Under the pieces are notes generated by a model that had not been told where the DNA came from, did not search any database, and was given only the letters and a program-made list of their open reading frames with translations. The position numbers and the translations under genes are program-made. From positions 62,001 to 126,000 of the forward strand of contig NZ_CP100400.1 of the NCBI RefSeq assembly GCF_024218795.1: a stretch of DNA of 64,000 nt, in the 5' to 3' direction. Positions 44,568 through 53,275 of the stretch are shown here, one piece after another; the stretch's first letter is position 1, and each line of letters starts with the position of its first letter. Origin of the DNA: Halorussus aquaticus (GTDB taxonomy: Archaea > Halobacteriota > Halobacteria > Halobacteriales > Haladaptataceae).

Positions 44568-46499
44568 ATGACTGACCTCGGCGGATACCAAGACCACGTC
44601 GCCCGAATCGACCTGAGCGACGGCGCGGTAGATTACGAAGGCATCGACGACGAGGATGCCGAGAAGTATATCGGCGCGCGCGGACTCGGCGCGAAGTACG
44701 TCTTCGACCAAGGACCGGACGTCGACCCGCTCGGTCCGGACAACCTGCTCGCGTTCATGAACGGCCCGCTCACGGGAACTCAGACCGTGATGAGCGGGCG
44801 AATCGCGGTGTGTACCAAGTCGCCGCTCACGAACACCGTCACCGACTCCCACCACGGCGGGTGGTCCGGGGCGCGACTCAAGTGGGCCGGGTTCGACGGC
44901 CTGCTGTTCGAGGGCGAGGCAGAAGACCCCGTCTACGCCTTCGTCGAGGACGGCGAAGTCGAACTCCGCGACGCCTCCCACGTCTGGGGTTGGGGCGTCC
45001 ACGACACCATCGACGAACTCGAAGACGAGTGCGAGGGGTCGTACGGCAAGAACCTCTCGGCGATGGCCATCGGACCCGGCGGCGAGAATCAGGTCCGGTA
45101 CGCCTGCATCATGAACGAGGACGACCGCGCCTCGGGTCGGGGCGGCACCGGCGCTGTGATGGGGTCGAAGAACCTCAAGGCGGTCGTCGTCAAGTCCTCC
45201 ACGAAGATGCCAAAGCCCGCCGACCAAGAGACGTTCCGAGAGGGCCACCAGCAGGCGATGCAGGTGATTCAGGAGTCGGACGTGACCGCGCCGAACGAGG
45301 GCGGCCTGTCGATGTACGGCACCAACGTCCTCATGAACCTGACCGAGGAGATGGACGGCCTGCCGACGCGCAACGCCCAGCACACGAGTACGAGCAGCGA
45401 GGCGGCGGCCGACCCCTCCGAACCCAACATCGACGCCGAGAACGTCTCGGGCGAGAACGTCCGGGAGAACATCCTCGTGGACGAACCCACCTGTCACTCC
45501 TGCCCCGTCGCGTGTAAGAAGGAGGTCGAGGTGCAGGTCCACCACAAGGGCGAGGACCACAACGTCCGGATGGAGTCCTACGAGTACGAGTCGGCGTGGG
45601 CGCTCGGCCCGAACTCGATGAACGACGACCGAGACAAGGTCGCCATGATGATAGACCGGTGCAACGACATGGGCGTGGACACCATCGACATGGGCAACAC
45701 GATGGCCATGGCGATGGAGGCCTCCGAAGAGGGTTACCTCGACGAGGGCCTCGACTGGGGCGACGCCGACACCATGATAGAGATGATAGAGCGCGTCGCC
45801 AACCGCGAGGACGACCTCGCGGACCTGCTCGCGGAGGGGTCGATGCGCGCGTCCGAGGAACTCGGCGACGGCGACATGTCCCTCGACGTGAAGGGCCAGA
45901 GCATGGCGGCCTACGACCCGCGCGCCATGAAGGGGATGGCTATCGGCTACGCCACCTCGAACCGCGGGGCCTGCCACCTCCGGGGGTACACGCCCTCGGC
46001 CGAGATTCTGGGCATCCCGAACAAGGTGGACCCGAGCGAACCCGAGGGGAAGGGCGAACTCTGCGCCACGTTCCAAGACCTCCACGCCATCAGCGACTCG
46101 TTCGACATCTGCAAGTTCAACGCCTTCGCGGAGGGTATCGAGGAGTACGTCATGCAGTACAACGGCATGACGGGACTGGACGTGAGCGAGGAGGAACTCA
46201 TGGAGGCGGGCGAGCGCATCTACAACCTCGAACGCTACTACAACAACCTCGTCGGGTTCGACGGGAGCGACGACGACCTTCCGGCCCGGTTCGTGGAGGG
46301 CAACGAGAAGGCCATCCCCGGAGAGGGCGGTTCCGAGGGTCAACTCGTGGAACTCGACCAACTCAAGGACGAGTACTACGAGGTCCGCGACTGGGAGGAC
46401 GGCGTGGTCCCCGACGAGAAACTCGACGAACTCGGCATCGACGTCGGCCCCGGTACCGGCGTGAGTTCCGGCGGCGCGGCGGCCTCCGGCGACGACTGA
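44568..46499 (+). CDS. Aldehyde ferredoxin oxidoreductase, tungsten-pterin type
   Basis: The enzyme oxidises aldehydes to acids with ferredoxin as acceptor, using a bis-pterin tungsten cofactor and one 4Fe-4S cluster. The 643 residues show the N-terminal domain (IGARGLGAKYVFDQ, GPLTGTQTVMSGRIAVCTKSPLT, YACIMNEDDRASGRGGTGAVMGSKNLKAVVV) and the cluster Cys in CHSCPVACKKE plus a later Cys in DICKFNAF. The length is slightly above the archaeal norm, with a low-complexity C-terminus. Its aldehyde is not defined. A candidate operator and TATA box precede it. Confidence 0.92.
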   Translation: MTDLGGYQDHVARIDLSDGAVDYEGIDDEDAEKYIGARGLGAKYVFDQGPDVDPLGPDNLLAFMNGPLTGTQTVMSGRIAVCTKSPLTNTVTDSHHGGWSGARLKWAGFDGLLFEGEAEDPVYAFVEDGEVELRDASHVWGWGVHDTIDELEDECEGSYGKNLSAMAIGPGGENQVRYACIMNEDDRASGRGGTGAVMGSKNLKAVVVKSSTKMPKPADQETFREGHQQAMQVIQESDVTAPNEGGLSMYGTNVLMNLTEEMDGLPTRNAQHTSTSSEAAADPSEPNIDAENVSGENVRENILVDEPTCHSCPVACKKEVEVQVHHKGEDHNVRMESYEYESAWALGPNSMNDDRDKVAMMIDRCNDMGVDTIDMGNTMAMAMEASEEGYLDEGLDWGDADTMIEMIERVANREDDLADLLAEGSMRASEELGDGDMSLDVKGQSMAAYDPRAMKGMAIGYATSNRGACHLRGYTPSAEILGIPNKVDPSEPEGKGELCATFQDLHAISDSFDICKFNAFAEGIEEYVMQYNGMTGLDVSEEELMEAGERIYNLERYYNNLVGFDGSDDDLPARFVEGNEKAIPGEGGSEGQLVELDQLKDEYYEVRDWEDGVVPDEKLDELGIDVGPGTGVSSGGAAASGDD

Positions 46500-50493: not shown

Positions 50494-50766
50494 TCATCCG
50501 CCCGCCCGCATCGCCTTCTGGGAGAACTTCTCTATCAGTGGGTCCAGCGCGCTCTCCTCGCCCTCGAAGACGACCGTGACCTCGGTCAGCGTCACGGAGC
50601 GACCGATTTTCACCTTCTCCGAGGAGACGCTGGCCCGCCAGTCGTCGCCGACCACGTCGCCGTCGCCTTCCGGGTCGCCGCCTTCGATGGTCCCGCCGAG
50701 GTTCGAGAGGTACCGCCGGGCGAGTCGCTCGGAGATGCCCCGGAAGGACTTCTCGACCCGCATCAT
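50494..50766 (-). CDS. Small conserved protein coupled to moaD-like gene
   Basis: The start is the first of two ATGs (50766), which overlaps the stop of the MoaD-like gene by four bases; the second ATG three bases later is possible. The 90 residues are beta-rich and charged: KSFRGISERLARRYLSNLGGTIE and VKIGRSVTLTEVTVVFEGEE. No metal or catalytic motif is seen. The tight overlap with the MoaD-like gene suggests a partner role in cofactor or protein-modifier chemistry. No family name is certain. Confidence 0.6.
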   Translation of the reverse strand: MMRVEKSFRGISERLARRYLSNLGGTIEGGDPEGDGDVVGDDWRASVSSEKVKIGRSVTLTEVTVVFEGEESALDPLIEKFSQKAMRAGG

Positions 50767-51056
50767 CCCTCCGCCGTCACGGCGTCGCTTCCGCCCGCGA
50801 CCGGGGGGAAGACGCTCAGGGTGTCGCCGTCCGCGAGGCGGGTGTCCACGCCGTCGATGTGGACCACGTCCGTGCCGTTCTTCATCACGGACAACTGTGA
50901 CCGGAGGTCGCCGTCCTCGAAGAGGTCGAGACCGTACTCGTCGGCGAGGTCCGTCAGCACGTCGCCGACGGTGGTCCCGTCGGGGTAGTCGCGTTCGAGG
51001 GTCTTCTGGCCGACCGTCTCGCGGAAGTTGGCGAAGAAGCGGAGTTCCAGCGTCAT
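50763..51056 (-). CDS. MoaD/SAMP-type ubiquitin-like protein with extended tail
   Basis: The 97-residue product has the beta-grasp fold of MoaD and the archaeal SAMP modifiers: LELRFFANFRETVGQKTLERDYPDGTTVGDVL and VVHIDGVDTRLADGDTLSVFPPVAGG. The Gly-Gly is the site that E1-like UbaA must activate, and in known SAMPs it is the very end. Here eight residues (SDAVTAEG) follow Gly-Gly, so the protein either needs trimming by a JAMM-type protease or is not a sulfur carrier or modifier. It overlaps its downstream gene by four bases. Confidence 0.85.
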   Translation of the reverse strand: MTLELRFFANFRETVGQKTLERDYPDGTTVGDVLTDLADEYGLDLFEDGDLRSQLSVMKNGTDVVHIDGVDTRLADGDTLSVFPPVAGGSDAVTAEG

Positions 51057-51057
51057 C

Positions 51058-51441
51058 TCATCGCCCCGGTCGGATGCCGTCGCTGACGATTCGGGCGTGA
51101 CGCTCGCGGTCGATGCGCTCGCCGAGGTTCTCGTGGTCGTACAGTTGCTGCATCAGCGCCCCCATCAGGTCGCGCCACGCCATCGCGTAGATGGGCGACT
51201 GGCCCCACGCGCGCAACTCGGCCACGAAGTCGTCGTACTGCTCCCACCGGTTCTCGAACCGTTCGAGCGCGTCCACCACCGCGCCCGCGGCGTCGTCGTC
51301 GCCGTCGGCCTCCGCGATGGCGCTGTTGAGTCGGCGCTCCCACCCTTCGACCGCGCGTTCCATGTCTCGGGCGGCGTCCTCGCCGTCGGCCGGGAGCGAT
51401 TCGACGATGGGGTCCGGCACGGAGAGCGTCAGTTCGTCCAT
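51058..51441 (-). CDS. Helical acidic protein upstream of moaD-like gene
   Basis: The start is the ATG giving MDELTLSVPDPIVESLPADG. The 127 residues are mostly helical and acidic (EDAARDMERAVEGWERRLNSAIAEAD; ALERFENRWEQYDDFVAELRAWGQ; YAMAWRDLMGALMQQLYDHENL). No family is recognised. It ends two bases before the start of the MoaD-like gene and is the first gene of a four-gene unit on the minus strand. It may bind the MoaD-like product. Confidence 0.55.
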   Translation of the reverse strand: MDELTLSVPDPIVESLPADGEDAARDMERAVEGWERRLNSAIAEADGDDDAAGAVVDALERFENRWEQYDDFVAELRAWGQSPIYAMAWRDLMGALMQQLYDHENLGERIDRERHARIVSDGIRPGR

Positions 51442-51630: not shown

Positions 51631-52035
51631 ATGAACACCGACGCCAGAAGCGCCGAGGTGCCCGCTCGCGACTCCGAGACGACCGTCGAGGTCCGATGCA
51701 CCGGCCACGTCCGGACCGAAGTCGGAGCGCCGAAACTGGAGTTCACCTTCGAGGGCGAGACGCTCCGGGAGTTCCTCGACGCGTTCTTCGCCGAGTACGA
51801 CGTGAAGGACCTGCTGCTGGCCGAGACCGAGGCGGAGGCGTCCACGAGCGGGTGGGCCGAACCGCCCGAGGACCTCCCCGACACGTGGCGGAAGAACCCC
51901 GAGGGCGAGCAGACCCGGACCTACGCCCGCGTCACGGTCGGCGGCGAGTTCAACGAACACCTCTCGGGGCTGGACACCCGCCTCGCGGACGGCGACCGCG
52001 TCGGACTCATGTACCCGTTCATCTACTGCTGCTGA
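51631..52035 (+). CDS. MoaD-fold ubiquitin-like protein ending in Cys-Cys
   Basis: The start is the ATG giving MNTDARSAEVPARDSET. The core has the beta-grasp features of MoaD: VEVRCTGHVRTEVGAPKLEFTFEGETLREFLDAFF, and the strand GLDTRLADGDRVGLMYPFIYCC, parallel to the DTRLADGDTLSVFPPVAGG of the neighbouring MoaD-like gene. Instead of Gly-Gly it ends with Cys-Cys, so it cannot be a normal thiocarboxylate carrier; metal or disulphide chemistry is possible. An insertion of about 30 residues lies in the middle. The next gene starts one base after its stop. Confidence 0.75.
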   Translation: MNTDARSAEVPARDSETTVEVRCTGHVRTEVGAPKLEFTFEGETLREFLDAFFAEYDVKDLLLAETEAEASTSGWAEPPEDLPDTWRKNPEGEQTRTYARVTVGGEFNEHLSGLDTRLADGDRVGLMYPFIYCC

Positions 52036-52036
52036 T

Positions 52037-53275
52037 ATGGGTGCCCGAGCGGTGACGCGGTGGGCGCGACGGTTCGTCGCCGCGAGCGCGCTCTTCCTCG
52101 TCGCGTGGCAGGCCGCCGCGCTCGTCGGCGTCGACAGACGCGTTCGAGTGGCGCTCGCGGTCTACGGCTTCGTCCTCCACGCTGTCTTCGGGAAGGCCTA
52201 CTCGCTGGTCCCCTCCTACTTCGACCGGTCGCTCGCGCTCACCCGCGCGCCCGCCGTCCACTTCCCGCTCACCGCGCTCGGGGCAGTCGGACTCGCCGCC
52301 GCGCCGCTCTCGGGCGTCCCAGAAGGAGTCGGTGCGGTCGGTGCGCTCTGCTGGACCGCCGGAGTCGCCGTCTTCGTCGCGGCGCTCGCGTGGACCCTCC
52401 GGGACAACCCGACCGGCCGCGAGACCGGCACGAGCGACGCCAACGCCGACCGCAGGCCGGTGGACCGCTTCGCCAACGCCTTCGTTCCCGTCGTCCTCGC
52501 GTACCTGCTCGTCGGGTCCTACGCCACCGTCGCCGGACGCGTCGCCCTCGTTCCCTCGCTCCCCGGTCTCTCGTCGCTCGGGGTCGCGCGCACGGCCCAC
52601 CTGCTGGCGGCGGGCACCGCCGCGCTCCTCGTCTTCGCGGTCGGATTCCGACTGTTCCCGCGGTTTCTGGTCGCCTCGCCGCCGCAAGCGCTCGTCGCCG
52701 TCGTCCTACCCGCGGGAGCGGTCGGCCCGGCCGTCCTCGCGTGGGGTCTCTACCGCAGGCCGTGGTTCCCGACCGGAGCGACCCTCGAAGCACTCGCCGT
52801 GGTCGGATTCGCGCTGGCGTACGCCGTCCTCTTCGTCCGCTCGGAGCGCCGCCGCGTCGGGTTCTACGCGGTCCTCGTCGGCGTCGCGTCGGGCGTCCTC
52901 GGCGTGCTGGTCGGTCTCTCGTTCGCGCAGGGCGACGTCCCGGCCTCGTCGGCGCTCGTCGAGACCCACTTCCGACTCAACGTCCTCGGGTTCCTCGGCA
53001 TGACTATCGCGGGTGCGACCTACCAGTTCTACCCGCCAACCGTCGGCACGTTCCCCGGCGCGTCCGACCGAACCGCGTTGGCCTCAGTCGCGCTGGTCGG
53101 CGTCGGTCTACTCGCAGAACTCGGCGGTGTGCTGACCTCGGCGACGACCGGTGTGCGGGCGGCGACGTGGACCGGGTCGCAGACGGCGACGTGGGTCCTC
53201 GTCGGCCGCGCGAGCGCGCTCGGCGGCGCGCTCCTGTTCGCGGGTCTCGTCCTCGGCGTGTTCGCCGAGCGGTGA
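52037..53275 (+). CDS. Polytopic membrane protein, NnrS-/heme-copper-like
   Basis: The 412-residue product has 11-12 membrane segments. Conserved His residues occur in the membrane: VYGFVLHAVFGKAYSLVPSYFDR, RTAHLLAAGTAALLVFAVGFRLFPRF and ETHFRLNVLGFLGMTIAGATYQFYPPTVGTF. The pattern recalls NnrS and the heme-binding subunit of oxidases and NO reductases, but this is an inference. It starts directly after the Cys-Cys MoaD-like gene (TGATATG) and both are probably made together. Confidence 0.6.
   Translation: MGARAVTRWARRFVAASALFLVAWQAAALVGVDRRVRVALAVYGFVLHAVFGKAYSLVPSYFDRSLALTRAPAVHFPLTALGAVGLAAAPLSGVPEGVGAVGALCWTAGVAVFVAALAWTLRDNPTGRETGTSDANADRRPVDRFANAFVPVVLAYLLVGSYATVAGRVALVPSLPGLSSLGVARTAHLLAAGTAALLVFAVGFRLFPRFLVASPPQALVAVVLPAGAVGPAVLAWGLYRRPWFPTGATLEALAVVGFALAYAVLFVRSERRRVGFYAVLVGVASGVLGVLVGLSFAQGDVPASSALVETHFRLNVLGFLGMTIAGATYQFYPPTVGTFPGASDRTALASVALVGVGLLAELGGVLTSATTGVRAATWTGSQTATWVLVGRASALGGALLFAGLVLGVFAER

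Follow-up and report, generated by a model that had tools for sequence, protein, structure and literature searches.

A haloarchaeal MoaD/SAMP relative with a conserved penultimate cysteine and recurrent linkage to denitrification-type genes

The gene at 51631..52035 (+) of the 64,000-nucleotide stretch of Halorussus aquaticus DNA analysed here (the window) encodes a protein of 134 aa that, according to the translated reading frame, ends in PFIYCC and is a distant relative of MoaD and the SAMPs, from a beta-grasp family restricted to haloarchaea. Our work identifies a single cysteine, the penultimate Cys133, rather than the Cys-Cys pair as the conserved unit of the tail of this family, and places the corresponding genes in a recurrent neighbourhood of denitrification and heme-type genes. 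It is the glycine tail that defines ubiquitin-fold carriers, and a widespread lineage that keeps the ubiquitin fold with a selected cysteine at the glycine position would show that the chemistry of the tail is exchangeable. Our preferred, still tentative reading is that the protein may be a MoaD/SAMP-derived thiol/persulfide or redox carrier that acts via Cys133 and serves membrane metalloproteins handling nitric oxide or nitrite as well as a heme-type radical-SAM/CGCGG module.

The relationship to MoaD and the SAMPs, already proposed in an earlier sequence-only reading, is borne out by profile and fold comparisons. The protein matches the curated moaD_arch profile with an E value of 1.4e-5 (25.5 bits, cut-off 49.5), the ThiS profile with 0.003 (18.5 bits, cut-off 22.5) and the SAMP1 profile with 0.005 (17.4 bits, cut-off 60), and all 33 scanned members of the family are matched by moaD_arch. 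In a profile-profile comparison, the family matches the Gly-Gly-type MoaD encoded nearby in the window with an E value of 7e-11. The AlphaFold model has the strand order of a beta-grasp protein at modest confidence (pLDDT 59; the tail is of low confidence), and its top fold matches in the PDB as found by Foldseek are SAMP1, HVO_2177 (SAMP3) and MoaD. Thus, the fold is that of the MoaD/ThiS/SAMP group, whereas the C-terminal Gly-Gly is absent and the scores stay below the family cut-offs; moreover, the protein has a conserved W..NPEGEQTR stretch within an insert of about 30 residues that is absent from MoaD. The family is a variant form within a fold family already known, with a putative carrier role. 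A member is encoded in 248 of the 394 Halobacteria genomes screened, and no relative was detected outside Halobacteria at E <= 1e-12 among 295 genomes from across the phylum (about 242 of them from other classes), nor was any found in viral contigs; a viral or wider archaeal origin was therefore rejected. Literature searches with the names HVO_2178 and HVO_0383 gave nothing.

Downstream of the gene lies mem2 (52037..53275, +), which encodes the 412-aa membrane protein MEM2. The stop codon TGA is followed by a single A and the ATG of mem2, exactly as first read from the sequence. Both reading frames are clearly genes since their orthologues are about 70-80% identical. The two genes adjoin each other in seven related records, and the gap is mostly one base in close Halorussus relatives; in locus L015 the two genes overlap as TGATG, and locus L013 has a longer gap of about 36 bases. 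In this genus, the translation of MEM2 is probably coupled to that of the Cys-tailed protein. The suggestion that the gene pair is conserved holds in part. Among the 394 Halobacteria genomes, 146 have a strong MEM2 match and 107 have both genes, which lie within 10 kb of each other in 47 of the 107, as compared to about half a percent expected from random placement (the linkage statistics ignore genome relatedness). About 14 of these 47 close pairs are direct neighbours, they come from more than one family, and the gene order varies; the link to the membrane protein family thus recurs outside Halorussus. However, an obligate operon or pair had to be rejected, as MEM2 is present in just 107 of the 248 genomes with the Cys-tailed protein. 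Since 141 of these genomes lack a strong MEM2 match and 39 genomes have MEM2 alone, MEM2 is not an obligate partner; even in the same genus, one genome (G387) has the Cys-tailed protein and lacks MEM2. Taken together, the association is real: it recurs loosely across the class and is tight in Halorussus.

MEM2 had been described as a 12-TM protein with membrane histidines of the NnrS/heme-copper type. The 12 predicted helices, the conserved histidines and the heme-copper oxidase/NO reductase subunit I fold stand: the best fold match of the MEM2 model in the PDB is NorB (3o0r_B, E 5.3e-6), and Foldseek also found several heme-copper oxidases. Membership in NnrS was rejected since none of 11 MEM2 members was matched by the NnrS profile at E <= 1, and the resemblance to NnrS is one of general character. 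No Pfam family, including COX1 and NnrS, matched MEM2. While MEM2 shares the 12 helices, the fold match and the membrane histidines with NorB and subunit I of the heme-copper oxidases, it has only four conserved histidines, at positions 48, 75, 188 and 311 (His188 and His311 in 35 of 35 sequences, His48 and His75 nearly invariant), instead of the six histidine ligands of the superfamily, two of which form the pair on helix VII. According to the predicted helix order, no conserved histidine is located on helix 7, and a complete catalytic metal site is unlikely as the two adjacent copper-ligand histidines of this helix are missing. A second, COX1-like membrane protein from these neighbourhoods, MEM3, is probably a homologue of MEM2. 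In many genomes, the gene directly upstream of the membrane gene (L074 2346-2909, +, and 27 relatives) codes for a 196-aa protein without annotation, in which six histidines and one cysteine are conserved; this protein is possibly a soluble metal-binding partner.

A stronger theme than the pairing with MEM2 is the whole neighbourhood of denitrification and heme-type genes. In 79 loci that were not chosen for linkage, the genes at a distance of up to 7 genes from the Cys-tailed gene encoded radical SAM proteins of TIGR04053/TIGR04347 in 23 cases, MEM3 in 18 (mostly next door and divergent), the CGCGG radical-SAM-associated protein in 18, the 196-aa six-histidine protein in 16, MEM2 in 12, the Htur_1727 protein in 11, NirK in 8 and DUF2249 proteins in 6; HTH regulators are found there as well. 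The counts for the radical SAM proteins, MEM3, CGCGG, MEM2 and NirK are far above random placement, with P values that ignore genome relatedness. In Haloferax mediterranei, denitrification induces DUF2249 genes of the same setting (PMC11218638). Two annotated records illustrate the arrangement. In Halorussus halophilus, the order is CGCGG, MEM2, nirK, a 764-aa cbb3-type subunit I of about the size of a quinol NO reductase, halocyanin, radical SAM, hemG, HTH and the Cys-tailed gene; in Halobaculum marinum, it is TIGR04053, halocyanin, Htur_1727, TIGR04347, the Cys-tailed gene, a cbb3-type subunit I and nirK. The organism of the window has a denitrification cluster of its own (G000 C1:3402000-3434000, loci L147 and L148) with nirK, MEM3, two DUF2249 genes, TIGR04053, a second copy of MEM2 and proteins of 765 and 840 aa, the size of NO reductases or oxidases; no Cys-tailed gene was found in this cluster.

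About 15 of 103 loci, including the window itself, belong to a second context that combines an aldehyde ferredoxin oxidoreductase (AOR), a SAMP3-type MoaD and small proteins ending in Gly-Gly. In the window, the AOR, a tungsten-pterin enzyme, is encoded at 44568..46499 (+; PF01314, E 6e-123, and PF02730). The Gly-Gly-type MoaD (50763..51056, -), which lies outside the gene pair, is closest to HVO_2177 (SAMP3; 2m19, E 4.8e-26) and reaches 89 bits with the SAMP1 profile. Such SAMP3-type MoaD proteins have 8-16 residues beyond the Gly-Gly in the window (..VAGGSDAVTAEG) and in two related loci (L013 3105-3395 and L018 3638-3955), and proteolytic processing would thus be needed for them to act as carriers; those of loci L014-L016 end in Gly-Gly. 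The gene for a small protein ending in RAGG (50494..50766, -) begins within the final bases of the MoaD gene, an arrangement like that listed for arCOG06308 in 2010 (PMC2948915, Table 1), and the protein is probably this TBP-like neighbour. Most loci of this context also have, upstream and in divergent orientation, the gene for a conserved 127-aa protein (cluster 10; 51058..51441, -, in the window). The AOR/SAMP3 context could point to pterin/tungsten chemistry instead. Neither context was seen in 39 of the 103 loci, and many genomes with the Cys-tailed protein lack NirK or MEM2; denitrification can therefore not be the sole setting. A strict association with NirK was likewise rejected since many carriers of the Cys-tailed gene have no NirK above the cut-off.

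Placed end to end without gaps, VFPPVAGG of the neighbouring SAMP3-type MoaD aligns with MYPFIYCC, and the profile alignment of the two proteins runs to a shared proline with no insertion or deletion there. This supports the original assumption that Cys-Cys stands in place of Gly-Gly, and by this alignment the two cysteines occupy the position of the SAMP glycines. Their codons are located at 52027..52032 (+). As to the conservation of the tail among homologues, the expectation was correct for one of the two residues: the penultimate Cys133 is present in 110 of 113 distinct sequences and none of the 113 ends in Gly-Gly, but the terminal Cys134 is found in only 87 and is mostly replaced by Leu, Val or Phe (22 of 113). 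On a family tree for which the two C-terminal residues and the locus L107 had been left out, the penultimate position changed once and the last position 14 times, the latter number being approximate because many forks of the tree are unresolved. The conservation of the penultimate residue and the roughly 14 exchanges of the last one indicate that evolution singles out one thiol, that of Cys133. The three exceptions are the protein of L107 with its altered end and two sequences of a diverged tandem paralogue that end in FAP and also lack His26. In L107 (7751-8188, +), the gene departs from the family immediately ahead of the PF-CC tail, where unrelated sequence takes the place of its 3' end, possibly through an insertion. 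The tandem paralogue (L069 7092-7487, -, with a second copy in L149) ends in PFLFAP, lacks His26 and both tail cysteines, and lies beside an intact CC copy.

A second conserved element is the motif Cys23-Thr-Gly-His26 (51697..51708, +) within RCTGHVR, which the ubiquitin/MoaD topology places at the end of strand 1. Cys23 is present in 92 and His26 in 103 of 109 sequences. Only the pair His26/Cys133 is nearly universal. In this fold, the end of strand 1 adjoins strand 5, and His26 should therefore be near the base of the tail.

These patterns bear directly on the alternatives. The first would be a metallochaperone in which the Cys-Cys tail, alone or with Cys23 and His26, passes Cu(I), iron or heme iron to MEM2 or to NirK/NO reductase. 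Copper and heme enzymes are indeed encoded nearby (NirK, NO reductase-type proteins, halocyanin), and there are conserved cysteines and histidines near both ends of the fold, with Cys23, His26, Cys133 and Cys134 occurring together in 74 of 113 sequences. However, there is no universal two-cysteine site: besides the replacements of Cys134, Cys23 is exchanged for Ala, Gly or Phe in 17 of 109 sequences, and the alignment shows no compensation between Cys23 and Cys134. We consider this possibility rather unlikely. The idea that the Cys-Cys tail itself chelates copper or heme iron has lost ground since the last cysteine is dispensable, with Leu, Val or Phe taking its place in about one fifth of the sequences; a two-cysteine site for a metal or a disulfide is weakened by the same exchanges. 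Next, the protein could be a non-catalytic subunit or regulator whose hydrophobic YPF[IM][FY]C tail docks onto MEM2 or an enzyme, with the cysteine packed or sensing NO or oxidation. It is the whole YPF-x-[FY]-C tail that is conserved, beyond the thiol alone, hydrophobic end residues are tolerated, and HTH regulators are near; yet mere packing should allow Ser, Ala or Val at position 133, and none of these occurs in the main lineage, which makes this alternative unlikely as well. Finally, it is quite improbable that the protein is a non-canonical modifier or carrier whose terminal carboxylate is activated by the E1 UbaA despite the lack of Gly-Gly (as a thiocarboxylate, or for conjugation via Cys or Leu ends): although the descent from SAMP/MoaD is clear and a Gly-Gly-type MoaD and a small Gly-Gly-ending protein are neighbours in one context, the glycines required by E1 enzymes are replaced throughout the family, the last residue is Cys, Leu, Val or Phe, which is to our knowledge unlike known E1 substrates, and no Gly-Gly upstream of the tail is available to be exposed by processing.

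For a thiol/persulfide or redox carrier, the reading that we prefer, it is tempting to speculate that a cysteine thiol has taken over from the E1-dependent thiocarboxylate at Gly-Gly. Cys133 on the flexible C-terminal tail would hold a persulfide or cycle between thiol and disulfide, probably assisted by His26 at the base of the tail. Sulfur or reducing equivalents would then be delivered to metalloproteins involved in handling nitric oxide or nitrite; the clients may be the divergent heme-copper-fold membrane proteins, with which the carrier might make direct contact in the case of MEM2, and the heme-type radical-SAM/CGCGG module encoded alongside. A more far-reaching version, which we regard as somewhat unlikely, is that a branch of the ubiquitin/MoaD lineage exchanged the thiocarboxylate made by E1 for cysteine-persulfide/thiol-redox chemistry at the same end of the chain, which serves to mature or protect the membrane metalloproteins that deal with NO in haloarchaeal denitrification. 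The Cys-tailed protein is a candidate accessory factor of denitrification, a pathway with poorly known accessory genes.

It had been assumed that no system of this form has been described. This has to be revised: the CC tail as such was already known. In 2010, Makarova and Koonin noticed a beta-grasp family of ubiquitin-like proteins with a CC end in Halobacteria, arCOG00539, and then looked for further families of this kind; the part of that text which deals with the family proposes neither a function nor a partner (PMC2948915). The Cys-tailed family almost certainly corresponds to arCOG00539, as judged from the shared restriction to Halobacteria, the beta-grasp fold and the double-cysteine end rather than from a direct arCOG assignment. 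Beyond the description of arCOG00539 given there, our work reveals the penultimate cysteine as the conserved one and gives counts for how often heme-copper-fold membrane proteins, radical-SAM modules and nirK are found linked to the family. No description of the single-cysteine pattern, the heme-copper-fold partner or the linkage to denitrification was found in the open-access literature searched. The link to denitrification suggests a concrete and testable phenotype, in culturable haloarchaea, for a family that was noticed in 2010 and has been unexplained since. With SAMP1, SAMP3 and MoaD, the Cys-tailed protein shares the fold, detectable sequence similarity and the position of the chain end, whereas the lack of Gly-Gly, the W..NPEGEQTR insert and the scores below the family cut-offs set it apart. 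The closest functional parallel comes from DsrC/TusE, which has an unrelated fold: no DsrC/TusE family was among the NCBIfam matches of the Cys-tailed members, and no sequence relation was found. Sulfur chemistry of the beta-grasp protein is proposed by analogy. In DsrC, the persulfide forms solely on the strictly conserved penultimate cysteine, and the second cysteine is optional (PMC3397948). Thus, both proteins present a conserved penultimate cysteine on a C-terminal arm, followed by a second cysteine that is optional.
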